A DNA stretch of 64,000 nucleotides, taken from NCBI RefSeq assembly GCF_002117005.1, contig NZ_CP021023.1, positions 1,364,001 to 1,428,000 of the forward strand, read 5' to 3'. This document shows positions 8,212 to 53,622 of the stretch, in pieces (the first letter of the stretch is position 1; the number at the start of each line of letters is the position of its first letter). The stretch is from Sedimentisphaera salicampi (GTDB taxonomy: Bacteria > Planctomycetota > Phycisphaerae > Sedimentisphaerales > Sedimentisphaeraceae). A model generated the notes under the pieces. The model was not told the origin of the DNA. It ran no database searches and worked only from the letters and a program-made list of their open reading frames with translations. A program made the translations under genes and the position numbers.

Positions 8212-9755
<1,544 letters not shown>

Positions 9756-29536: not shown

Positions 29537-31744
29537 ATGGCTAAAAAATATTATGCTCATTCGAAGCCTGTCAATTTAATTGATAATAAAAGCAGAGAAA
29601 ATTGGCATTTATTAAAAGACCATCTGCAAAGTGTTGCTGAGATTTCCAGTTCTTTTGCGTCTGAGTTCAACTGCAGCAACTGGGGATATTTGATTGGTCT
29701 GCTCCACGACACTGGCAAATATTCAAAAGAATTTCAGGATTATCTCTTAAAAAGCAGTCAATCACCACCGAATAAAAAGCCTTCTATAAAAGTAGATCAC
29801 TCCACAGCGGGCGGACAATACGTAAGTGGAATTGATCCGCAAATAGGGAAATTGTTAGCTTATTGCATCTGCGGGCATCATTCCGGCCTACCCGACGGTC
29901 TGTCCTCTGAAAGTTCATGCTTAAACGAACGCCTTAAAAAAGAAGTTCCTGAATATCATCATGCAGACACAATTAAAAGTAATTTAGACCTTCCAAAAAA
30001 TCCTCCCTTTCCTATTTCGACTGATCGGGCAGGAATTCAATTATTCTTTCTTATTAAAATGCTATTCTCCAGCTTGGTTGATGCTGATTTTTTAGATTCT
30101 GAAAATTTTTTTGACTACAAAAGGACTTCTCTTCGAGGCAGCAATCATACTTTAAGAGATCTCCATCATGCTCTCTCCAACAATATGGACGCTATGCTCA
30201 GTAACGTTCCAGACACAAACATTAACAAAATCAGAAAAGATATTCTGAAAGACTGCATAGAAGCTTCTTCCCTGCCTCCCGGGCTTTTTTCTCTCACCGT
30301 ACCTACAGGCGGAGGAAAAACTCTAAGCTCAATGAGATTTGCACTTGAACATGCAATAAAAAACAAAAAAGAAAGAATTATTTATGTAATACCTTACACA
30401 AATATTATTGAACAGAACGCAGAGGTATTTCGAGAATTTTTACATCCCGATGCAGTAATCGAACATCACAGCAATTTTGAATATGATGATAACGATTTTG
30501 AATACAACAAGGCAAAATTAGCCTCAGAAAATTGGGACTGGCCTGTGATTATAACCACCAGCGTACAGTTTTACGAATCCCTATTTTCAAACAAAACTTC
30601 AAAAAATAGAAAGCTCCATAATATTGTAAACAGTGTAATAATACTGGACGAGGTTCAAAAAATACCATTGGAGTATTTAATCCCATGCATTGAATCGTTA
30701 AGAGAGCTTTCACAAAGCTACAACTGCACAACCGTTTTATGCAGCGCAACACAACCTGCTATTATTAAAAGAAATGATTTTCCTCAAGGGCTGGAAAATG
30801 TAAGAGAGATTGCTAAGTCTCCCAATCAACTGGCTGAAAAGCTCAAAAGGGTTCAAGCGAAATATTTAGGTGTGAGGAACGAAGAGGAAATTGCCGAAGA
30901 GTTATCAAATGCCTCTCAAGGACTATGCATTGTGAATACAAAAAAAACGGCTGCTGAGATTTTTAGGCTGCTCCCTCAAGAAAACTCATACCATTTAAGC
31001 ACAAATATGTATCCTGCCCACAGGCGAAAAGTTCTTGAGGAAATTAAAGGAAGGCTCAATAATCATGAAGCCTGCCTGCTCGTCAGCACTCAGCTTGTGG
31101 AAGCGGGAGTTGATATTGATTTTCCTGTTGTTTACAGAGCCATGGCTGGTTTGGATTCAATAGCTCAGGCAGCAGGAAGGTGCAATAGAGAAGGACGGCT
31201 TGATTGGGGAAAGCTTTTCATATTCGAGCCAGAAAACGGCTGTCCGCCCGGCTTCTTAACTCAAAGTGCTAACGAAACTGTAACCATCCTAAACACTTCA
31301 AAAAAAGAAATTCTTGACCTATCCAATATTGAAGAATACTTTAAAAATCTTTATTGGATTAGTGAAGAGCAGTTGGATAAAGAAGGAATTGTTAAAGAAA
31401 TTGAAGAATCAAAACAAAACCTCAATTTCCCGTTCAAAAAGGTGTCTGAGAACTTTAAATTAATCAAAGATGATACCAAGCCGCTTATTATCCAAAGAGA
31501 TAAGGAAGCAAAAAAACTGATTTCAGAGGTGAATGAATTTGCAAATTTAAGGAAAATTTCAAGGCAGCTCCAAAAATACACTGTTCAGGTTCACCAGAGC
31601 AACTGGGCAAAATTATTTGAATATGGAGCAATCGAAATAGTACAGGATACTTTCCCTGTACTTATTAGAGATGAGCTTTACGATGAAAAAATAGGATTGA
31701 ATTTAGATAACTTAGAAATTGATGCAGGAAAATTGATTGTTTAA
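29537..31744 (+). CDS. cas3: CRISPR-associated helicase/nuclease Cas3 (type I-C)
   Basis: This 735-aa protein has an N-terminal HD nuclease domain (His57-Asp58 in LLHDTGKYS, a further CGHHSG motif near 115). The SF2 helicase has Walker A PTGGGKT at about 256-262 and motif II DEVQ at 371-374, and the second helicase domain shows QLVEAGVDIDFPVVYRAMAGLDSIAQAAGRCNR-type motifs V and VI. It unwinds and degrades target DNA after Cascade binding. TTGGAG lies 8 bp before the ATG. It is the first gene of the cas operon and is clearly AT-rich relative to the flanking chromosome. Confidence 0.96.
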   Translation: MAKKYYAHSKPVNLIDNKSRENWHLLKDHLQSVAEISSSFASEFNCSNWGYLIGLLHDTGKYSKEFQDYLLKSSQSPPNKKPSIKVDHSTAGGQYVSGIDPQIGKLLAYCICGHHSGLPDGLSSESSCLNERLKKEVPEYHHADTIKSNLDLPKNPPFPISTDRAGIQLFFLIKMLFSSLVDADFLDSENFFDYKRTSLRGSNHTLRDLHHALSNNMDAMLSNVPDTNINKIRKDILKDCIEASSLPPGLFSLTVPTGGGKTLSSMRFALEHAIKNKKERIIYVIPYTNIIEQNAEVFREFLHPDAVIEHHSNFEYDDNDFEYNKAKLASENWDWPVIITTSVQFYESLFSNKTSKNRKLHNIVNSVIILDEVQKIPLEYLIPCIESLRELSQSYNCTTVLCSATQPAIIKRNDFPQGLENVREIAKSPNQLAEKLKRVQAKYLGVRNEEEIAEELSNASQGLCIVNTKKTAAEIFRLLPQENSYHLSTNMYPAHRRKVLEEIKGRLNNHEACLLVSTQLVEAGVDIDFPVVYRAMAGLDSIAQAAGRCNREGRLDWGKLFIFEPENGCPPGFLTQSANETVTILNTSKKEILDLSNIEEYFKNLYWISEEQLDKEGIVKEIEESKQNLNFPFKKVSENFKLIKDDTKPLIIQRDKEAKKLISEVNEFANLRKISRQLQKYTVQVHQSNWAKLFEYGAIEIVQDTFPVLIRDELYDEKIGLNLDNLEIDAGKLIV

Positions 31745-31756
31745 TAAGGAGATTTT

Positions 31757-32419
31757 ATGAGCTATGGAGTGAAATTAAAAGTCTGGGGCGATTACGCGCT
31801 CTTTACCCGGCCGGAAATGAAATCCGAAAGAGTAAGTTATGATGTAATCACGCCGTCTGCCGCAAGAGGAGTTTTAGAAGCGGTTTATTGGAAACCGGAA
31901 ATAAAATGGATCATAAAAAAAATTCATGTATTAAAACCTATTCGATTTACCAACATCAGGAGAAACGAAGTTTCTCAGAGAACAAAAAAACCTTCAACCA
32001 GTCTTATAAATAAAGGCGGAACTGATGACAGCTTAGCCCTCTATATTGAAGACTCAAGGCAGCAGAGAGCTTCTATGATTTTGCGGGATGTATCGTACGT
32101 GATAGAAGCATATTGCCAGCTTAATGACCCTGCAGACAGCAACATAGGCAAGCATTTAGATATGTTCAAACGCCGCGCTGCTAAAGGCAAATGTTTTAGT
32201 CAGCCCTATTTTGGATGCAGAGAATTCAGCGCAAATTTCAGGCGGCTTGGAGAAGACGAGGCGATTGCGTCTTCTGAAAATAATGGAGAAAAAGATTTAG
32301 GGTTTATGCTTCACGACTTAGACTACCAAAATAACTATCAGCCCAGATTTTTCCGTGCAGTAATGCACAATGGCATAATTGAAGTTCCTGATTTATTCGC
32401 AGAGGAGGTGAAAACATGA
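31757..32419 (+). CDS. cas5c: Cas5c/Cas5d crRNA-processing protein (type I-C)
   Basis: The 220-aa protein has the Cas5 N-terminal RAMP strand (YGVKLKVWGDYALFTRPEMKSERVSYDVITPSAARGVLEAVYWKP region), characteristic of the I-C type. In this subtype Cas5c replaces Cas6 and cleaves the repeat hairpin to make crRNA. A strong AAGGAG ribosome binding site precedes the ATG. The stop overlaps the start of cas8c by 4 bp. Confidence 0.95.
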   Translation: MSYGVKLKVWGDYALFTRPEMKSERVSYDVITPSAARGVLEAVYWKPEIKWIIKKIHVLKPIRFTNIRRNEVSQRTKKPSTSLINKGGTDDSLALYIEDSRQQRASMILRDVSYVIEAYCQLNDPADSNIGKHLDMFKRRAAKGKCFSQPYFGCREFSANFRRLGEDEAIASSENNGEKDLGFMLHDLDYQNNYQPRFFRAVMHNGIIEVPDLFAEEVKT

Positions 32420-34152
32420 TTATCCAAGAATTGAGCAGATATTACGACAGGCTCAAAGAGAGAGAAGACCTTCAAGTTCCAGAGCCAGGTTTCTCCGTAG
32501 AAAAGATTAACGCTGCTGCGGTTATTGATGAAAACGGAAATCTGAAGCAAGTTAAAGACCTGCAAATTTATGAAAAGAAAAAATCGTATCCAAGGTATAT
32601 GGATGTTCCGCAAAGTTTCGGCCGATCTGGTTCGAAAGCTCATGAGCATCCATTTTTTCTCTGGGATAATACCGGCTTTGTATTAGGAAGCAGCGGCAAA
32701 GATGCAAAGAAAGACAAGCTGAAGTTCGATAATTTCAAAAAACTGCATTTCGATTTACTCGAAAAATGCGAGGAACCTGAAGCAAAAGCCTTACTGAATT
32801 TTTTTCAGAAATGGCAGCCATCTTCAGCTGAAGGTATTGACAACTGGGAAGAAATTGAGGGCAAGAATATAGTTTTCCAGCTTGAAACCAAAAGGGCATT
32901 TATTCATGAAAATCCTGTCATAAGGAAGATATGGTCGGATAATTACAAGAACTTCTTGAGTATTGATTTTTCAGACGGAATATGCTCTGTTACAGGCGAA
33001 GCTGAGCAAATCCCTAATATACACCCTATGCTTGGAGGGGTTAGAGGAGCTCAAAGCAGCGGAGCTGCAATTGTTTCATACAATAAGAGTTCTTTTGAGT
33101 CTTATGGAAAAACACAAAATTACAATTCGTCTGTTGGCAGTAAAGCAGCCTTCAAATACACTACTGCCCTGAAATATCTCCTGAGCTCTAACAGCAGGCA
33201 AAAGATTCAGATAGGTGACGCCACCACAATTTTCTGGTCGGAAAGGCAGAGTGCTGTTGAAGGTATCTTTGGTTTGGTTTTTGAACCATACAATAATGAA
33301 GATTCCGAGAATAAATCTGTAAGAACTTTTCTCGAAACAGTTCGATTAGGAAGAAAGCCGGCTGATATTGAAGAAGGCAACAACTTCTACATCCTCGGGC
33401 TCTCTCCAAATGCTTCAAGATTGTCTGTGCGGTTCTGGCATGTTTCAGATGTTTCTGATATATGTGAAAAAATCGGGCAGCATTTCAGGGATTTACAGAT
33501 AATCCGCAGCTCAGATAAAGACAGCGAATTTCCTTCTCTCTGGCAGATCCTTCGGCAGACAGTAAGCCAGAAATCACATGAAGGCCCGCCTCCTCTGCTT
33601 TCCGGAGCATTGATGATGGCAATCCTAAAAGGAACTGCATACCCTGAACGAATCCTTTCATTACTTATTGAAAGAATAAGAGCTAATGAAAATGTAAATT
33701 ACTGTAAAGCAGCAGTGATTAAGGCTGTGCTTACAAGAAAATCAAGAATTTTTAATAATAACAATTTGGAGGTTGCTATGTCGTTAGACAAAAACAACAA
33801 AAATCCAGCTTATCTGCTGGGGCGTCTGTTTGCAGTGTTAGAAAGGCTGCAGCAAAGCGCTATCGGAAATGCAAATGCTACAATTAAAGACCGATTCTAT
33901 GGCTCGGCTTCTGCCACTCCACGGGCAGTTTTTCCAAATCTTCTAAAGCTCGCCCAGCATCACATTTCCAAATCTGATTATGGAACTTTCTACGATAAAC
34001 TTATCGAGGAGATTGTTTCAGAGGTTTCCGCCTTCCCTGCTCATTTTACAATCGAACAGCAGGGGCTTTTCGCTATAGGCTATTATCATCAAAGACAGGA
34101 CCTGTTCACTAAAAATGAAAAAACTAATAATCAGGAGAATGAAAATGAATGA
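32416..34152 (+). CDS. cas8c: Cas8c/Csd1 large Cascade subunit
   Basis: The 578-aa protein is of usual Csd1 length. Landmarks include [13 protein letters not shown], an N-terminal [15 protein letters not shown] stretch, the mid-protein segment [21 protein letters not shown] and the C-terminal helical region with [23 protein letters not shown]. It recognises the PAM and forms the small subunit by internal translation in some systems (a candidate internal ATG near 33778 follows a TTGGAGG stretch). It overlaps cas5c by 4 bp. Confidence 0.94.
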
Positions 34153-35026
34153 ACCAATTAAAAACCGCTACGAATTTGTTTATCTTTTTGATGTTGAAAA
34201 CGGCAATCCTAATGGCGACCCTGACGCAGGAAATATGCCGAGAATAGACCCTGAAACGCACTTCGGAATTATTACCGACGTGTGCCTGAAAAGAAAAATC
34301 CGCAATTTTGTTGAAATATCCAGCGGAGCCCAGCCGCCAAACGATATTTACGTAAAGGAAAAGGCTGTTCTTTCAAAACAGCAGGGTAAAGCATATCAAG
34401 CGCTGCAGTTCGATAGTAAGAAGGATAAAGGAGCTGAAATTATAAGTCAAGCGAGGCGGTGGATGTGTCAAAACTTTTACGATATAAGAACCTTTGGTGC
34501 TGTTATGAGCCTTAAAGAAAACAACTGCGGACAGGTAAGAGGCCCTGTACAGATAAATTTTGCCAGAAGCATTGATCCGATATGCCCCCTTGATGTTACA
34601 ATCACCAGAATGGCTGTTGCCACAGAAAAAGAAGCTGATTCTCAATCCGGCGATAACAGGACTATGGGACGAAAACAGATCGTTCCTTATGGACTCTACC
34701 GCGTTGAAGGGTACATTTCAGCTCATCTTGCAGCGCAGACCGGTTTTGGCGAAGAAGACCTTGAAATGCTCTGGCAGGCATTGATAAATATGTTCGATCA
34801 CGACCACTCCGCCGCTCGGGGAAAGATGTGCGCAAGAAAGCTTATAGTGTTCAAGCATGATTCTGCTCTCGGAAATGCTCCTGCTCACAAACTGTTTGAT
34901 AAGGTTAAGATTAAGCAGGTTGGAGAAACAAAACCTGCAAGAGAGTTTGAAGATTATGAATTGGAATTGCCCGAAGATGGAAAGCTTCCCGACTTCCAAG
35001 AAGTTACAGTTATAAACAAATTATGA
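34145..35026 (+). CDS. cas7c: Cas7c/Csd2 Cascade backbone protein
   Basis: The ORF opens at 34115, but the ATG at 34145 follows AGGAGA with 7-nt spacing and gives the family start [27 protein letters not shown]. The 293-aa product is a Cas7 family RRM-fold protein that lines the crRNA. Landmarks include [17 protein letters not shown]-like [20 protein letters not shown] and [13 protein letters not shown]. It overlaps the end of cas8c by 8 bp and the start of cas4 by 4 bp. Confidence 0.95.
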
Positions 35027-35706
35027 GCTATTCAGAAGAACAATTTCTCCAACTTTCCGGCTTGCAGCATTATCAATTCTGCAAGCGGCAGTGGGGCCTG
35101 ATACATATTGAGCTTCTATGGGCAGAAAATTTCCTTACTGCAAGCGGAAATTTGCTCCACAGCAGGGTTCACAAAAGAGACACAGAAATGCGTGGCGGCG
35201 TTTTAATGTCCAGAGGTCTCAGGCTCCACAGTTATAAATTAGGTTTGGCAGGGCAAGCTGATATCGTCCAGTTCGAAAGATCTGATTCTTCAAATGATAA
35301 GCTAACTTGTGATTTACCAGCATTTGAAGGGCGTTGGAAGCCTTGTCCTGTTGAATTTAAACACGGCAAACCAAAAATTTCAGCCTGCGATAGAATTCAG
35401 CTATGTGCTCAGGCTGTATGCTTGGAAGAAATGCTTGAAGTGCAGATTGACTTGGGGCAAATTTTTTACGGCAAAACAAGGAGAAGAGAAGACGTTGAAT
35501 TTACTGAACAGTTACGAGATAAAACGGCAGCTTTGGCAAATGAGATTCACAAAGTTTTTGATTTAGGTGTTGTTCCAAAAGTAACTCCTGGGCCTAAATG
35601 CAAAAGCTGTTCTCTTAGAGAATTATGCCTGCCTAAAACGACTGGCATAGACAAAAAGGTAAAACAATATATAGAAAGAATATTGTCTGATGAAACGGAT
35701 GCTTAA
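35023..35706 (+). CDS. cas4: Cas4 exonuclease for spacer selection
   Basis: The 227-aa protein carries the Cas4/AddB-like nuclease fold with catalytic residues in VEFKHGKPK. The four Cys of the 4Fe-4S cluster are Cys19/20-region (QFCKRQW) and [10 protein letters not shown] near the C-terminus. In type I-C it defines PAM and spacer orientation with Cas1-Cas2. The ATG overlaps the cas7c stop by 4 bp, and its 3' end overlaps cas1 by 17 bp. Confidence 0.95.
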
Positions 35707-36718
35707 CACTCTTTTCGTTACTACGCAAGGAGCGTATCTTTCAAAAAAGGGAGACACTGTTCTCGTAAATATTGACAGAGAAGTAAAGCTTAGGGTTCCA
35801 ATTCACACTTTAAGCCAGATAACTTGTTTCGGACAAATATCTATGAGTCCATTTCTAATGGGGCTCTGCGGCGAAAAAGGGGTTTCTGTTTCGTTTCTTA
35901 CAGAAAACGGAAGATTCCTTGCGAGAGTAAATGGGCCGGTATCTGGTAACGTGCTTCTTCGAAAAGCGCAGTTTGAGTTTCAGCAAAAAAACGGCAAAAC
36001 TTCCAAGCTCGCTGGCAAATTTGTTACCGCCAAAATAGCCAACTATAGAGCTGTATTGCAAAGAGCTCTTAGAGATAACCCCGAGAATAAATCTGACGAG
36101 TTAAATAAAGCCTCAAAATATATGAAAAGCTCTGCATTTGTGGCATTAGAATCTGAATCTTTGGATATAATTAGGGGCATAGAAGGGGAAGCAGCAAGGA
36201 CATACTTTTCTGTTTTCGACCACTTAATTCTTTGCCAAAAAGAGGATTTTAAATTTACTTCAAGGTCAAAGAGGCCTCCATTAGACAAAATCAATGCTAT
36301 GCTTTCTTTTGCTTACACCTTGCTGGTAAATGATGTACGATCCGCTTTGGAATCAGTAGGCTTAGACCCTGCAGTAGGCTTTCTTCATTCTTTGAGGCCA
36401 GGAAGGCCGTCTCTTGCTCTTGATATCATGGAAGAATTGAGACCTATATTTGGAGACAGGCTCATTCTATCACTGATAAACAGAAAGCAGATTACATCTT
36501 CTGGATTCAAAAAGACCGAATCTGGGGCAGTGGAAATGAATGAAGAAACAAGAAAATTACTTATCAATGCTTATCAAAAGAGAAAGCAGGATGAGATTAT
36601 ACACCCTTTCACTAAAGAAAAAATCAAGTTTGGCCTTTTACCACACTTGCAGGCAATGCTTCTTGCCAGATTCTTGAGAGCTGAAATGGAAGATTATCCA
36701 CCTTATTTTTGGAAATAA
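35690..36718 (+). CDS. cas1: Cas1 integrase (type I-C)
   Basis: The 342-aa integrase has the usual Cas1 motifs: [21 protein letters not shown] in the N-terminal beta region, the catalytic Glu in [14 protein letters not shown], His in [21 protein letters not shown] and Asp that follows. The start at 35690 overlaps cas4 by 17 bp; a second ATG is at 35699. With Cas2 it integrates spacers at the leader end of the array. Confidence 0.96.
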
Positions 36719-36720
36719 AA

Positions 36721-37011
36721 ATGCTGGTTTTGATTACTTATGATGTAAATACTCAGACAAAAGATGGAAGCAGGAGACTTAGGAAGGTTGCAAAAGCATG
36801 CGAAAATGTAGGGCAGAGGGTTCAAAATTCTGTATTTGAATGCCTGCTTGAACCTGCACAATGGGTTGAATTGAAGGATAAATTGTTGAACTTGGCCGAT
36901 ATGGAAAAGGACAGCCTTAGATTTTATTATCTTGGGAAAAACTGGCAAAGACGTATCGAACATTTTGGATCCAAACCTTCCTACGACCCTGAAGGACCGC
37001 TCATTGTATGA
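36721..37011 (+). CDS. cas2: Cas2 adaptation protein
   Basis: The 96-aa protein starts [19 protein letters not shown] with the conserved Asp near residue 8 and has [18 protein letters not shown]. It forms a dimer that bridges Cas1 pairs. The ATG at 36721 is 2 bp after the cas1 stop. Its stop codon TGA is inside the left arm of the terminator hairpin. Confidence 0.95.
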
Positions 37012-37056
37012 TGCGAACCCCAAGCGCCTACAATTTACTTGGGAGGTTCGCATTTT
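37011..37056 (+). terminator. Rho-independent terminator at the end of the cas operon
   Basis: The arm starting ATGCGAACC at 37011 pairs with the arm ending GGTTCGCAT at 37053, with a small asymmetric bulge and a second part CCAAG/CTTGG, then TTTTT. It separates the cas operon from the array. Confidence 0.75.
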
Positions 37057-37186
37057 TCGTAACTTATTCTTTAACAACTGAATAGAGTTGCATAAAAAAA
37101 GGCTGGTTTTCTTTTTTTATGTTTTGGCTAAGGTTCGCAAATATTGACTTATAAAACCTGATAAATAAACTTGTTACCATTAAGCT
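37057..37186 (+). promoter_or_regulatory. CRISPR leader
   Basis: An AT-rich 130-bp stretch sits between the cas terminator and the first repeat. GGTTCGCA recurs at 37133-37140. It should hold the array promoter and the integration site for new spacers; a precise promoter is not obvious. Confidence 0.65.
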
Positions 37187-39092
37187 GTCGCTCCCCTCAC
37201 GGGGGGCGTGGATTGAAACGCCTTCCGTATAATATCTTTAATTTGATCGTCTGGTCGCTCCCCTCACGGGGGGCGTGGATTGAAACATTTTTTTTCCTTT
37301 CCGATTACCAATATTTTTTGTCGCTCCCCTCACGGGGGGCGTGGATTGAAACTATTCCCTTTCGTTATAGGTTATTCAGCTCATTTTGTCGCTCCCCTCA
37401 CGGGGGGCGTGGATTGAAACTATATGAATCAAACGAAAAGGAAACATTGCATTGGTCGCTCCCCTCACGGGGGGCGTGGATTGAAACGTGTTAGCAGGAC
37501 AACGGGCGGAACTATGCTGTCGCTCCCCTCACGGGGGGCGTGGATTGAAACACCTATGACGGGGTGAGCTACACTGTAACCGGTGGTCGCTCCCCTCACG
37601 GGGGGCGTGGATTGAAACGATTCTTTTTCGTCAACGGTTTTCCACGTTCCTTGTCGCTCCCCTCACGGGGGGCGTGGATTGAAACGATTCTTTTTCGTCA
37701 ACGGTTTTCCACGTTCCTTGTCGCTCCCCTCACGGGGGGCGTGGATTGAAACTTTAAATCGTCAAGGTGTCGTTGGCAAGCAAGCTTGTCGCTCCCCTCA
37801 CGGGGGGCGTGGATTGAAACTTGTTCCCTTTCGTTTTTCGTTTTCTTTATCAGGTCGCTCCCCTCACGGGGGGCGTGGATTGAAACGTTCTGGAACAAAG
37901 ATAATTGGCAGCCGCTTTGTCAGGTCGCTCCCCTCACGGGGGGCGTGGATTGAAACATCCCCAGTCAGTAACTGGTATCCCGTGTCAACGTCGCTCCCCT
38001 CACGGGGGGCGTGGATTGAAACACACCTCAGCAGTTATTGCTGATGACTTGGACAGTCGCTCCCCTCACGGGGGGCGTGGATTGAAACTATTAGTGAGAA
38101 AGCAGCAGCAGATCAGGCCGTAGTCGCTCCCCTCACGGGGGGCGTGGATTGAAACTATTAGTGAGAAAGCAGCAGCAGATCAGGCCGTAGTCGCTCCCCT
38201 CACGGGGGGCGTGGATTGAAACGAAAGTGCTGCATATTGCGCAAGGTATATTACTAGTCGCTCCCCTCACGGGGGGCGTGGATTGAAACCCGCCGCCTTG
38301 CTTAAAGGTAACGGCTTGAGCGGGTCGCTCCCCTCACGGGGGGCGTGGATTGAAACACCTTGTGCGGTATGTGCGGTCTTAGACTTCTGCGTCGCTCCCC
38401 TCACGGGGGGCGTGGATTGAAACAGGTATTGCGTTTCTATTAACGCAATCGAAGACGTCGCTCCCCTCACGGGGGGCGTGGATTGAAACCTGCCCGGAAT
38501 GTTCACAAAGCAGGGGTATCCAGTCGCTCCCCTCACGGGGGGCGTGGATTGAAACACATCTATTGACGATTATCAAGACGCAGTTACTGCGTCGCTCCCC
38601 TCACGGGGGGCGTGGATTGAAACCTTGTGTTGAACAGCGAAGCGAAAGTTGCGGTAGCGTCGCTCCCCTCACGGGGGGCGTGGATTGAAACCTTGTGTTG
38701 AACAGCGAAGCGAAAGTTGCGGTAGCGTCGCTCCCCTCACGGGGGGCGTGGATTGAAACAAGCATACCATCAGGAAGCTGCTGCCCGCAATAGCGTCGCT
38801 CCCCTCACGGGGGGCGTGGATTGAAACTTTGAAAGAGTAGCGTATCCCTCGCTTATTGCTGTCGCTCCCCTCACGGGGGGCGTGGATTGAAACAATCGTA
38901 TTGAGTAAAGACTACAATTTTGTAGGGTCGCTCCCCTCACGGGGGGCGTGGATTGAAACAAAATAGTCTACGTCCGAAAAATCAAAGTTGTTTGTCGCTC
39001 CCCTCACGGGGGGCGTGGATTGAAACAGACCTATATGGAAAAACGGCGGAAACCTTCACGTCGCTCCCCTCACGGGGGGCGTGGATTGAAAC
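37187..39092 (+). CRISPR. Type I-C CRISPR array, 29 repeats and 28 spacers
   Basis: A 33-nt repeat begins GTCGCTCCCC and ends GTGGATTGAAAC. It contains a CCCC-TCAC-GGGG hairpin and occurs at 37187, 37254, 37320, 37388 and so on to 39060, with spacing 64-70 bp (spacers 31-37 nt). All copies read are identical, including the leader-distal one. Three neighbouring spacer pairs are identical: spacers 7 and 8 (37619-37652 and 37686-37719), 14 and 15 (38089-38122 and 38156-38189), 22 and 23 (38624-38658 and 38692-38726). It follows the cas1-cas2 genes directly, and the orientation agrees with I-C repeats ending in ATTGAAAC. Confidence 0.99.
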
Positions 39093-39104
39093 GAAAATTG
39101 CGGA

Positions 39105-49414: not shown

Positions 49415-51997
49415 TCAGTTGAGAAATTCTCTTAAACAATCGGAAATTTGAGAATAGAGGCTTTCAAGTTTCGGCAAGAGCGAACGGGCCTTTTCTGTCT
49501 CTCCGTTTCTCCCGCAGAGTTCCAATTCGAGGCACAGATTAGACAGTTTTTCCGCTGCCACATGCCTTGCAGAGCTTTTAAGACGGTGTGAATAAAGCTC
49601 CAGATCCTTTTGATTGTTCTCGTCAACGGCCTGTTTTATCTTATCTAAGCATAGATAGCCGTCCTCTAAAAACACGCCTGCAAGCTGCTTTGCCATTCCC
49701 TCATCGCCGCATTTTTTGATAAATCTTTCTATAAGGCCGGCAGTATCATCAGAATTTTCCTCTTTAGTTTCTGATTGCGGCGAATCATCATCACCTAAAT
49801 ACTGCTCCAAAGCGCTAATAAGCTTAATTCTGTCTATGGGCTTTGAAAGGTAGTAATCGCAGCCTGCGGCGAGACATTTCTCTCTGTCGCCTTTCATAGC
49901 GTTGGCCGTTAGAGCTATTATCGGGCCGTTCCAGTTTTGCTTGCGGAGCCTCTGTGCTGCCTCGCATCCATCCATCTCAGGCATCTGTACATCCATAAAT
50001 ATGAGCCTGTAAGACTTTTTCATAGCCATATCAACTGCAAGCTGCCCGTTCTCGGCAACATCTACATCAAGCCCCATCTTTTCGAGGTAAATCCTTATAA
50101 GCATCTGATTTGTTGGGCTGTCTTCTGCCACAAGTATGCTGCCGGAGAACTGGTTAGTAAGCTGCTGATGATTTTCGTATGAGGCCTCTTTCAGATTGAG
50201 CCTGTCCATCCTCGCCTGCGAATTAACATCCAACCCAGCAGGTATTGAAAGGGTGAACGTGCTGCCGAGCCCTGGCTCACTGCTGCATTTGAGCTCTCCA
50301 CCCAGAAGGCCTGCGAGTTTCGATGTTACGCTCAGCCCAAGCCCAGTACCCCCGTACTTTCTGGCTGTAGATTCCTCGGCCTGAGTGAATGGGTCGAAGA
50401 TATGCTCCAATTTATCATTGCTTATACCAACCCCAGTATCTTCTACTGCGAAAGAGATCCAGTCATCGCCGTTTTTCCTGAACGTTGAGACGATTATATG
50501 AACATGGCCGGAGTTGGTGAATTTAACCGCATTGCTGCAAAGATTTATCAGGCACTGATTCAGCCTGTGCTGATCTGAAACTATATTGGCAGGGATTGCG
50601 CCGTTTTCAATGATGCCGAATTCAAGCTTCTTCTCTTTAACCTTCTGATAAATGATTGATTCCACATTATTGAGAAGCCGGCCAAGAGAAAATTCGTTTA
50701 CATCAACCTTCATTCTTCCCGCTTCGATTTTAGAGAAATCGAGTATATCATTTATAAGCTCAAGAAGAGATTCGCCGCTGATGCTTATCTTTTCAACATA
50801 GCTTCTTGCCTCTCCGGGCAGGTTAAATTCCCTCAAAAGATCGCAGAATCCTATAATTGAATTCATCGGAGTTCTTATTTCGTGGCTCATATTTGCAAGG
50901 AATCTCTCCTTGGCACGGTTTGCCTCCTTGAGCTGTTTTTCCGCGTTTTCTCTTGCCCTTATTTCCTTCTCTTTAGAAGCAGTTGATAAATGCAGCTTCC
51001 TGTTTAAAAGCACAAGCCAAACAAATACAAGACCAAGAACAAGACCTGCAAAGAGAATGAAAAATATTGAATTTCTAAAATTCTTAAAGACCTGCGCGAG
51101 AGTAACTTTCCCGTGCATTTCATAAGGCTTATATCTGATCTCTCTGAGGCATTCACGAACTGATTTGTAATGGCTTGGTACTGTCCATCCGCCGATATTA
51201 GCCTGAACGGCAGCATTATGCCCTTCCGGCATATTCAAAAGAGCAACCGTAACCCGCTTGGAAACAGTTGCAGGGATATGTTCAAGTGCTGAGAAAGGCC
51301 ATTCAGGATAAGTTTCAGTGGAATGAAGGAACGGAAGATCTTCGTTTGTGCAAGATTCAACTATCTTAAAATCGTCAAGATTTATTTTTCCCTCAGCCGC
51401 AAGCCGCTCCAGACTGTTGCTTCGAACAATCCCTGCATCTGCAGAACCCTGCTGAACAGAATAGACAACTTTATCATGGCTGCCTGTGAAGCTCAGCGAG
51501 CTGAAATCCCCGGGCACATCAAGGCCGTCAGCCACAAGCTCTCGTTTTACAGCAAGCCATCCTCCAAAGGAATTCCTGTCAACAGCGGCAATGTGAAGGC
51601 CTTTTAAGTCTCGAAATCTTTCAAAGCTTTTGTCTTTAAGGCAGAAAACAATGCCGGCAAAGCTGTTTATGTTTCCCGCAGGGCTTTTGTTTACGAGTGT
51701 GGCCAATCTTTTAACGTGATAATTGTATTCCAGATTTACATACACAGCTGGATTTGCCAGAACGAAATCCACCTGTCCGCTTTTAACAGCTTCCTCAATT
51801 TCATTAAAATCTAAAGGAACTATTCCGAAAGAATCTGACTCGAATTGATCACTGAGATACCCGCCCGTGGCAGACCATCTCTCCAGACATTTGGCATCCC
51901 CCCGTTTTGCAAGCACACCTATTTCATAATCATCGGCCTGAGCGGCGGCTGCCAAAAAGACGAGAAAAAGGAATATAATATTCACCGGTTTTCCCAT
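49415..51997 (-). CDS. Hybrid sensor histidine kinase with PhnD-like periplasmic sensor, REC and HPt domains
   Basis: The 860-aa protein has a signal peptide/TM (1-21), a PhnD-type periplasmic binding domain (about 23-275, with ANPAVYVNLEYNY and SFAGIVFC), TM at about 303-327, and HisKA with His372 (FLANMSHEIRTP). HATPase shows NLCSNAVKFTN and GGTGLGLSV; REC has Asp669 (LIFMDVQMPEMDG); a C-terminal HPt domain has His804 (LYSHRLKSS). It is a multistep phosphorelay kinase. PhnD-type sensors bind phosphonate or other small oxyanions (TtrS binds tetrathionate), so the ligand is open. It is divergent from the AroC-like gene across 235 bp; no partner response regulator lies near. Confidence 0.9.
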   Translation of the reverse strand: MGKPVNIIFLFLVFLAAAAQADDYEIGVLAKRGDAKCLERWSATGGYLSDQFESDSFGIVPLDFNEIEEAVKSGQVDFVLANPAVYVNLEYNYHVKRLATLVNKSPAGNINSFAGIVFCLKDKSFERFRDLKGLHIAAVDRNSFGGWLAVKRELVADGLDVPGDFSSLSFTGSHDKVVYSVQQGSADAGIVRSNSLERLAAEGKINLDDFKIVESCTNEDLPFLHSTETYPEWPFSALEHIPATVSKRVTVALLNMPEGHNAAVQANIGGWTVPSHYKSVRECLREIRYKPYEMHGKVTLAQVFKNFRNSIFFILFAGLVLGLVFVWLVLLNRKLHLSTASKEKEIRARENAEKQLKEANRAKERFLANMSHEIRTPMNSIIGFCDLLREFNLPGEARSYVEKISISGESLLELINDILDFSKIEAGRMKVDVNEFSLGRLLNNVESIIYQKVKEKKLEFGIIENGAIPANIVSDQHRLNQCLINLCSNAVKFTNSGHVHIIVSTFRKNGDDWISFAVEDTGVGISNDKLEHIFDPFTQAEESTARKYGGTGLGLSVTSKLAGLLGGELKCSSEPGLGSTFTLSIPAGLDVNSQARMDRLNLKEASYENHQQLTNQFSGSILVAEDSPTNQMLIRIYLEKMGLDVDVAENGQLAVDMAMKKSYRLIFMDVQMPEMDGCEAAQRLRKQNWNGPIIALTANAMKGDREKCLAAGCDYYLSKPIDRIKLISALEQYLGDDDSPQSETKEENSDDTAGLIERFIKKCGDEGMAKQLAGVFLEDGYLCLDKIKQAVDENNQKDLELYSHRLKSSARHVAAEKLSNLCLELELCGRNGETEKARSLLPKLESLYSQISDCLREFLN

Positions 51998-52232
51998 TTT
52001 TTCTCCGTAATTGGTTATACTACATCATAACACGTATCATCATAACCTGCATAAAGCCGAAAGCAAACATTTTTATGACGCAAATAAAGGTTACTCCTTC
52101 AGTTAATGGCCGCTATAACCACGATACGTTTCTGTTTACAGTAACTTAAAAAAACTTATAATCTGAGAGGTTTATTAAAAGCATAGCGTAATTTTAGGGA
52201 AAGATTATTATCTTATATATTGGAGTAATGAA

Positions 52233-53567
52233 ATGCTTGGATGCCATACAGGAAGAAATTTTCAGGTTAGCGTTGCAGGGGGTTCTTATCAGGACGGGCT
52301 TACATCTATGATTCACGGCTGCCCGCCCGGAATGAAAATCACCGAAAAAGAAATCTACGGCGACCTCCTTCTAAGAAAGCCCGGGGCAGATGAGCTCTCA
52401 AGCCCTCGAAAAGAGCCTGACCTGCCGATAATTTACAGCGGTATAAACAGCGCAGATACAGTGGAAGGGGCAGGCAACGCTTTCCTCACGAACGCAACGC
52501 CGCTTACTATTCTTATCCCAAACCTCGACAGGCACTTCATACATATAAAGCAGTATCAGGATACCAACAGAACGCCCCGCCCGGGACACGCATCCTACGC
52601 AACGTTTATGAAATACGGCCAGTCCGATGATGCTATCGGAGCGGGCATATTCAGCGGCCGCTACACCTCCACAATCGTAGCGGCGGGATATGTGGCCAAG
52701 AAGATTCTCGGTGAGCTGGGGATAAATGTATTCTCCTTTGTACGTGAGGCTGCGGGAGTGCAGTGTCCGGAGATGGATTACGAAGATATTTACCAGTTTA
52801 CGCAGCGATACAAAGAAATGCGCAAAAACTACGACCCATTCTACCAGCAGATCTACGAAAAACAGCGAATACGCACAGAGATGCGGTTTCTCGAGAAAAT
52901 GGCCGTTTTAGCAGAGGTGGAAAATGAAATAGACAAGATCAGGGCTGACGGGGAAGAGATGGAGCCTGAAAAAATCAAATCCGAATACGATGTGCACCAT
53001 ATCCTCTGCTGCCCGGACTACAAAGCAGCCTGCGAGATGGTTGAGGCGTGCGGAAAAATCACCAAAACCGGTGATTCCTCCGGCGGGATTGTGGAAGTGG
53101 CAGCTACCGGAATGCCCACAGGCCTCGGCGAGCCGGTATTCAGCAAACTCGATGCGGAGCTGGGCAAGATGCTCGGAATCGGAGCTGTTAAGGGAGTTGA
53201 GATTGGAGCAGGATTCAAGGCCAAGGATATGACAGGCCACCAGTGCAACGACCAAATCAGAAGCGAAAACGGCAAGGTAGTGTTCGATTCAAACAACGCC
53301 GGCGGAATCACAGGCGGAATCTCAAGCGGACAGAACCTCATTGCAAGGCTCGCTATAAAACCAACACCCACAATTGACAAAGACCAGCATACGATCGATA
53401 AATACACCCTTAAGAACACAAAGCTCTCGGCTATCACAAGAAGAGATCCCACAATCGTAGGGAGAATATGGCCGGTGGCTGAAAACTACACCGCAATAGT
53501 ACTGCTTGATAATCTTATGAGCTTATATGGACAGAAAACCCTAATGGACAATCTCGGTAACAGCTGA
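52233..53567 (+). CDS. Divergent chorismate-synthase-like protein (AroC family)
   Basis: The 444-aa protein has the AroC fold signatures: DGCPPGMKI, RPGHASYATFMKYGQ (His region kept), GLGEPVFSKLDAELG, GVEIGAGF, NNAGGITGGISSGQ. The hallmark GESHG is changed to AGGSYQDG (Tyr19 where the catalytic His lies), GGRSSARET to GIFSGRYTST, SNHAGG to SNNAGG and RHDP to RRDP. It is longer than usual (about 360) by a charged helical insert near 195-245. It may be a genuine but diverged chorismate synthase or a different flavoprotein. A ribosome binding site TTGGAG precedes the ATG. Confidence 0.8.
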   Translation: MLGCHTGRNFQVSVAGGSYQDGLTSMIHGCPPGMKITEKEIYGDLLLRKPGADELSSPRKEPDLPIIYSGINSADTVEGAGNAFLTNATPLTILIPNLDRHFIHIKQYQDTNRTPRPGHASYATFMKYGQSDDAIGAGIFSGRYTSTIVAAGYVAKKILGELGINVFSFVREAAGVQCPEMDYEDIYQFTQRYKEMRKNYDPFYQQIYEKQRIRTEMRFLEKMAVLAEVENEIDKIRADGEEMEPEKIKSEYDVHHILCCPDYKAACEMVEACGKITKTGDSSGGIVEVAATGMPTGLGEPVFSKLDAELGKMLGIGAVKGVEIGAGFKAKDMTGHQCNDQIRSENGKVVFDSNNAGGITGGISSGQNLIARLAIKPTPTIDKDQHTIDKYTLKNTKLSAITRRDPTIVGRIWPVAENYTAIVLLDNLMSLYGQKTLMDNLGNS

Positions 53568-53595: not shown

Positions 53596-53622
53596 AAGCC
53601 GGCAATTCCAGCCGGCTTTATA
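53596..53622 (+). terminator. Terminator of the AroC-like gene
   Basis: AAGCCGGC (53596-53603), 7-nt loop, GCCGGCTT (53611-53618), then TTATAAT. The stem is strong but the T-tract is short. Confidence 0.55.

Follow-up and report, generated by a model that had tools for sequence, protein, structure and literature searches.

A widespread clade of probable chorismate synthases with tyrosine in place of the active-site histidine

The window analysed here, a stretch of 64,000 nucleotides from the chromosome of Sedimentisphaera salicampi, carries a divergent chorismate synthase gene, here named aroC-Y. Its product is very probably a genuine chorismate synthase, converting EPSP to chorismate and phosphate with the aid of reduced FMN, and belongs to a clade that is deeply separated and has tyrosine in place of the otherwise invariant active-site histidine. 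With the same high confidence, the gene is regarded as a second, separately transcribed chorismate synthase gene that accompanies a normal shikimate kinase-chorismate synthase (AroK-AroC) fusion in this genome. The first-pass annotation had left a choice between a diverged planctomycete chorismate synthase and a new FMN-dependent enzyme; the former is favoured here, with the amendment that the clade is not confined to planctomycetes.

Chorismate synthase, which completes the pathway to aromatic compounds, has long been studied as a drug target, and its flavin mechanism is unusual. A literature search, whose coverage left out most subscription journals, returned no description of a Tyr-type or second chorismate synthase, and the Tyr clade is apparently an undescribed, widespread branch of this enzyme. 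If the proposed assignment is correct, a clade in which the Tyr form is the sole enzyme would show that the phosphate-side histidine is not essential, and would provide natural material to settle the identity of the phosphate proton donor and the real chemistry of the enzyme. Moreover, there would be hundreds of genomes for which annotation from signatures, or predictions of auxotrophy, may be mistaken, and in some of these the clade draws attention to a shikimate kinase that is missing.

The aroC-Y locus and its product

The aroC-Y gene is probably transcribed as a single gene, since it is equipped with its own ribosome-binding site, a promoter-like site and a 3' hairpin, and since both neighbours, encoding a hybrid histidine kinase (upstream) and a PEP-CTERM protein (downstream), lie on the opposite strand. 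The hairpin was found by reading the sequence and was not called by the scan. The features of the locus and the clade-specific additions to the protein are as follows (window coordinates):

52135..52162, plus strand: promoter-like site TTTACA-16-TATAAT, near consensus (11/12), the count of such sites in the region being not above chance
52222..52225, plus strand: ribosome-binding site GGAG, read from the sequence, with the ATG 7 bases further on
52233..53567, plus strand: aroC-Y, divergent chorismate synthase gene; open reading frame of 444 codons plus stop
52530..52571, plus strand: loop specific to the clade, R100-H-F-x-H104-I...N112-R113, running into the active site, with H101 and H104 invariant
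52794..52988, plus strand: helical insert of ~65 residues (188-252), identified by alignment and absent from canonical enzymes
53596..53618, plus strand: terminator-like 8-bp hairpin, AAGCCGGC/GCCGGCTT, directly after the stop codon and followed by a weak T tail

The divergently oriented hybrid sensor kinase (window 49418-51997) contains receiver and Hpt domains and a periplasmic, phosphonate-binding-like sensor (PF12974). Elsewhere in the window, a type I-C-like CRISPR locus (29537-39094) encodes proteins with Pfam matches to Cas3, Csd1 (Cas8c) and Cas1, with probable Cas5, Cas7 and Cas4 genes lying between them, and its array (37184-39094) comprises at least 29 repeats, with some spacers duplicated. 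A 16S rRNA gene is located at 8218-9755 on the minus strand, and no 23S or 5S rRNA gene was found within the same 64 kb, indicative of unlinked rRNA genes.

Membership of the chorismate synthase family was evident from a full-length match to Pfam Chorismate_synt PF01264 (E 8.5e-93; score 311 against a cut-off of 27) and from a match to NCBIfam TIGR00033 aroC (305.6 bits; cut-off 212.2), while the score against NF003793 (318.6) was slightly below the cut-off of 321. All solved relatives retrieved by sequence search were chorismate synthases. An AlphaFold (AF2) model (pTM 0.85, mean pLDDT 79), built with 74 sequences of the clade, exhibited the beta-alpha-beta fold of chorismate synthase, and comparison with the PDB yielded 28 matches at E<=0.001 (E 1.7e-21 to 2.1e-11), chorismate synthases without exception; the AroC fold claimed from the sequence at first pass is thus borne out. 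Low confidence (pLDDT <50) was seen at residues 54-57 and 101-118, stretches that include active-site loops. The window protein also matches signature PS00788, and standard automatic annotation would already label it a chorismate synthase. Signatures PS00787 and PS00789, by contrast, were matched by none of the 105 complete clade members, compared with 19 and 29 of 32 canonical sequences, respectively; the version of PS00787 used is strict, as its 19/32 canonical matches indicate.

The greater length of the protein and its helical insert, both reported previously, were confirmed by alignment, which resolved the additional length into three inserts of 10-12 residues near position 73, 3-5 residues near position 100 and ~65 residues at 188-252. 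In the region of the last of these, the model predicts confident helices at 183-200, 202-209, 219-230 and 245-252.

Replaced and retained active-site residues

For comparison of the active site, a canonical set of 32 sequences (31 canonical proteins plus 1QXO) was used, and residue roles and numbers of known enzymes are those of S. pneumoniae (1QXO) unless stated, His10 of S. pneumoniae being His17 of N. crassa. The corresponding motifs of the window protein read G16-G17-S18-Y19-Q20, F140-S-G-R-Y-T145, S353-N-N-A-G-G and R403-R-D-P406. The codons of the principal active-site segments are located as follows:

52281..52292, plus strand: G17-S18-Y19-Q20, with Tyr at the invariant His10/His17 of GESHG and the Ser (S9/S16) kept
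52578..52595, plus strand: R116-P-G-H119-A-S121, with the EPSP-binding Arg and FMN-N1 His kept and the conserved Asp (D112) replaced by Ser
52650..52667, plus strand: F-S141-G-R143-Y-T, counterpart of SSARET, with the catalytic Ser and phosphate-binding Arg kept
53439..53450, plus strand: R403-R404-D405-P406, counterpart of RHDP/RSDP, with the EPSP-binding Arg and catalytic Asp kept

Of the positions fixed in the 32 canonical sequences, only four were consistently swapped in the clade, namely E8 to G, H10 to Y, G11 to Q and D112 to S. The replacement of the active-site histidine by Tyr19, as noted at first pass, was found to be a property of the entire clade, with Y19 and Q20 present in 105/105 complete members and histidine in 32/32 canonical sequences. 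S121, H101, H104 and R404 are likewise invariant across the 105 proteins, and 48 clade-specific invariant positions were counted in total. The joint replacement of E8, H10, G11 and D112 suggests, from the alignment, that these residues make up one local network.

Conversely, all 105 proteins keep S18, R48, R59, R116, H119, S141, R143, K376, R403, D405 and R411, which include the counterparts of S9 (S18), R39 (R48), R107 (R116), H110 (H119), S132 (S141), R134 (R143), K311 (K376), R337 (R403) and D339 (D405) in the alignment to 1QXO. By this mapping, every EPSP-binding arginine named in PMC11633415 has a counterpart in the window protein. The earlier statement that several FMN and substrate contacts are affected was therefore overstated, as none of the EPSP-binding arginines is lost and the catalytic Ser, His110 and Asp339 are likewise kept. 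The SSARET motif is indeed altered, to F-S-G-R-Y-T, with its catalytic Ser and Arg nevertheless kept. Two further changes had been read correctly and are not unusual: SNNAGG or TNNxGG is also found in normal enzymes (5z9a, 1qxo), and the position of the H of RHDP, which is R in the clade, is S or T in the solved chorismate synthases 1qxo (RSDP), 1q1l (RTD) and 1ztb (RSD). The G preceding RHDP, replaced by T in the clade, is also variable among solved enzymes.

Overall, the window protein resembles AroC (PF01264, TIGR00033; 1QXO, 1UM0, 2O12, 7RCA) in its fold, in Ser9/Ser132, the FMN-N1 His110, Asp339, Lys311 and the EPSP-binding arginines, and in the slot that Tyr-type genes occupy beside aroA. 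It differs in the changes of GESHG to GGSYQ, HAD to HAS and SSARE to FSGRY, in its inserts (~10, 3-5 and 65 residues) and in an identity of only ~37% to canonical enzymes. The core chemistry would also be shared with the bifunctional chorismate synthases of fungi and mycobacteria, which have their own flavin reductase; whether an enzyme itself reduces FMN with NAD(P)H is not predictable from sequence (PMC2386126).

In the canonical mechanism, flavin N1 receives its proton from His110, and a conserved Asp, mutation of which causes a 300-600-fold loss, primes N5 (PMC3509576, a review). The leaving phosphate has been proposed to be protonated by His17, a residue (His11 in M. tuberculosis) that, together with the Asp, is stated to occur in every known species (PMC2386126). 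Another account gives a conserved histidine as the proposed phosphate proton donor and adds that an arginine cannot be excluded (PMC12697075). Read with these literature-assigned roles, the residue comparison indicates that the clade retains the flavin-side residues and the substrate ligands, and that the swapped residues are precisely the acid proposed for the phosphate side and those around it. In the Tyr clade, reduced FMN and EPSP would accordingly bind as in 1QXO, His119 would protonate flavin N1, and Asp405 would prime N5, acting through water. The proton for the leaving phosphate may come from Tyr19, which is the simplest option, or from His101 or His104 of the loop that just precedes the active-site Arg116-His119 segment; an arginine or water may also supply it. 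The model does not discriminate among these donors, the loops concerned being below pLDDT 50.

Distribution of the Tyr form and the case for chorismate synthase activity

Relatives of the window protein at 66-77% identity were found throughout the order. A hand count of 59 genomes identified 39 with the Tyr form only (some as fragments), 7 with both forms (this genome and six other relatives), 12 with canonical AroC only (one a fragment) and 1 with neither. In a phylum-wide sample, the Tyr form was present in 17/392 genomes, and a scan of GTDB genome contigs revealed at least 301 places that encode a clade relative. The records of the best 80 of these 301 places are labelled Planctomycetota, Lentisphaerota, Fibrobacterota, Spirochaetota, Omnitrophota, Ratteibacteria, Armatimonadota and Myxococcota, with the proviso that metagenome bins may carry a wrong phylum label. 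Among 30 genomes from this wider scan, 4 of which (by coordinates) are G008, G034, G041 and G042 of the 59-genome set, 26 were without a canonical member, including the closed chromosomes CP070715 and CP070728.

When 43 clade and 32 canonical proteins were put into one tree, the two groups were separated by a fully supported and very long stem branch (2.6 changes per column), at which long branches meet, so that the root was not placed. Phyla are partly intermixed within the clade, suggesting, on the basis of the tree, horizontal transfer of the Tyr form. Mean internal identity was 71% for the clade, indicative of strong constraint, versus 47% for the canonical set, which was drawn more widely.

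The Tyr form is probably functional, since many bacteria appear to carry no other version. In 21 genomes of the order, aroA is located <=400 bases upstream of the Tyr-type aroC, and the same arrangement was observed at 28 of the 71 wider-scan loci with enough flanking sequence, with some overlap between the two sets. The aroA product, EPSP, is the substrate of chorismate synthase. In G002, which encodes canonical AroC only, the canonical aroC occupies the same slot beside aroA. TrpE/PabB-type chorismate-binding enzymes were detected in 37/37 genomes tested, most of which are without canonical AroC, and we know of no other kind of chorismate synthase. By gene content and aroA context, the chorismate synthase step of these chorismate-using genomes is thus filled by the Tyr form, and the Tyr-only genomes, often with aroA next door, favour a chorismate synthase over a new function.

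The S. salicampi genome (3.19 Mb, one contig) contains two members of the family. The second aroC with GESHG, whose presence the first-pass annotation had proposed to check, was found as a 530-residue AroK-AroC fusion (L001) with normal GESHG and RHDP, a result that by itself would favour a new function for aroC-Y. The window protein shares 39% identity with this fusion and differs from it in these two motifs and in having no shikimate kinase domain; both belong to the same family and presumably catalyse the same reaction. In this genome, the Tyr form could be a redundant, slowly eroding leftover that contributes little after gain of the fusion (or the reverse). We consider this a tentative possibility; it concerns this genome alone and is compatible with the clade-wide chorismate synthase explanation. 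Consistent with erosion, the sole congener of S. salicampi in the set encodes the fusion and not the Tyr form, and the window gene is an orphan, distant from aroA. Its product furthermore has a terminal branch of 0.32, versus 0.13 for its sister L004, and deviates at 5 of the 213 columns that are >=95% conserved, versus a clade median of 1. However, the reading frame is intact, preceded by its own ribosome-binding site and promoter-like site, all active-site positions are kept, and the other genomes with both forms are without surplus deviations (1-2 sites). A mild relaxation of the window copy is possible, given that a normal AroC is also encoded in the genome; a pseudogene is not indicated. 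A synteny comparison with the sister species, covering 400 kb around the guessed position of the locus, yielded no matching genes, a result compatible with either gain or loss.

A more far-reaching alternative is that the ligand of the Tyr clade, EPSP or an enolpyruvyl sugar acid similar to it, is turned into another product, with normal AroC supplying chorismate. An alanine mutant of the replaced histidine was reportedly impaired in N. crassa in the Kitzing 2004 work. The loss of a residue stated to be present across all known species (PMC2386126), the very long stem, as might follow a change of function, the 48 clade-specific invariant positions and the seven genomes with both forms are all in line with such a shift. 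Against it, no other chorismate synthase was found in 39/59 relatives and 26/30 wider-scan genomes, the tested Tyr-only genomes keep TrpE/PabB-type enzymes, many have aroA adjoining, and the EPSP ligands are unchanged. We therefore regard this alternative as unlikely, and the Tyr form probably does not catalyse a new reaction.

Shikimate kinase and AroA in Tyr-only genomes

A further point against the chorismate synthase assignment is that the EPSP route is not fully accounted for, as 13 of the 23 tested Tyr-only genomes were without a recognisable shikimate kinase. These are the two closed chromosomes, G440 (CP070715) and G458 (CP070728), together with G010, G018, G019, G026, G030, G034, G041, G045, G051, G056 and G058. 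A PF01202 search of the 13 genomes at E up to 1 returned only short sub-cut-off matches, most of them at the model's P-loop end, and no match to archaeal-type shikimate kinase exceeded the cut-off in these genomes. All of them hold aroA and Tyr-type aroC, and TrpE-type enzymes were present in all eleven tested for them.

One reading is that in Tyr-only, kinase-less bacteria the last part of the shikimate pathway is modified, for example by another C3 activating group or a new kinase, and that the change of His to Tyr reflects the altered leaving group rather than ordinary EPSP chemistry; we judge this to be quite improbable. The active site of the Tyr protein is identical in genomes with and without the kinase, so a non-homologous kinase is more likely than an altered substrate, and there may be a third kind of shikimate kinase.

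The AroA proteins of this lineage (36 loci of L046-L124, encoded beside Tyr-type aroC, and L186-L205) have Glu at the position of E. coli Ser197, without exception at the 36 loci, and mostly Val in place of Lys411; the same is seen in genomes with canonical AroC. Ser197 of E. coli AroA is a ligand of shikimate 3-phosphate. A phosphate-free pathway was nevertheless rejected, since the Glu also occurs in genomes with both shikimate kinase and canonical AroC; the substitution is thus a trait of the lineage that is not linked to the Tyr form.

That a normal aroC is merely missing from the metagenome bins that make up most of the set (in which G014 is without any family member) is very unlikely indeed, given that many bins are 93-99% complete, that the closed chromosomes CP070715 and CP070728 hold the Tyr form only, and that the pattern recurs in about 60 genomes.

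Variation in copy number and arrangement was also observed among relatives. G051, G452 and G465 each encode two Tyr-type aroC copies and no canonical one, while at G044:C121:19987-24228 (L203) aroA, an AroK-AroC fusion and a Tyr-type aroC lie in one row, with the two chorismate synthase forms in tandem.
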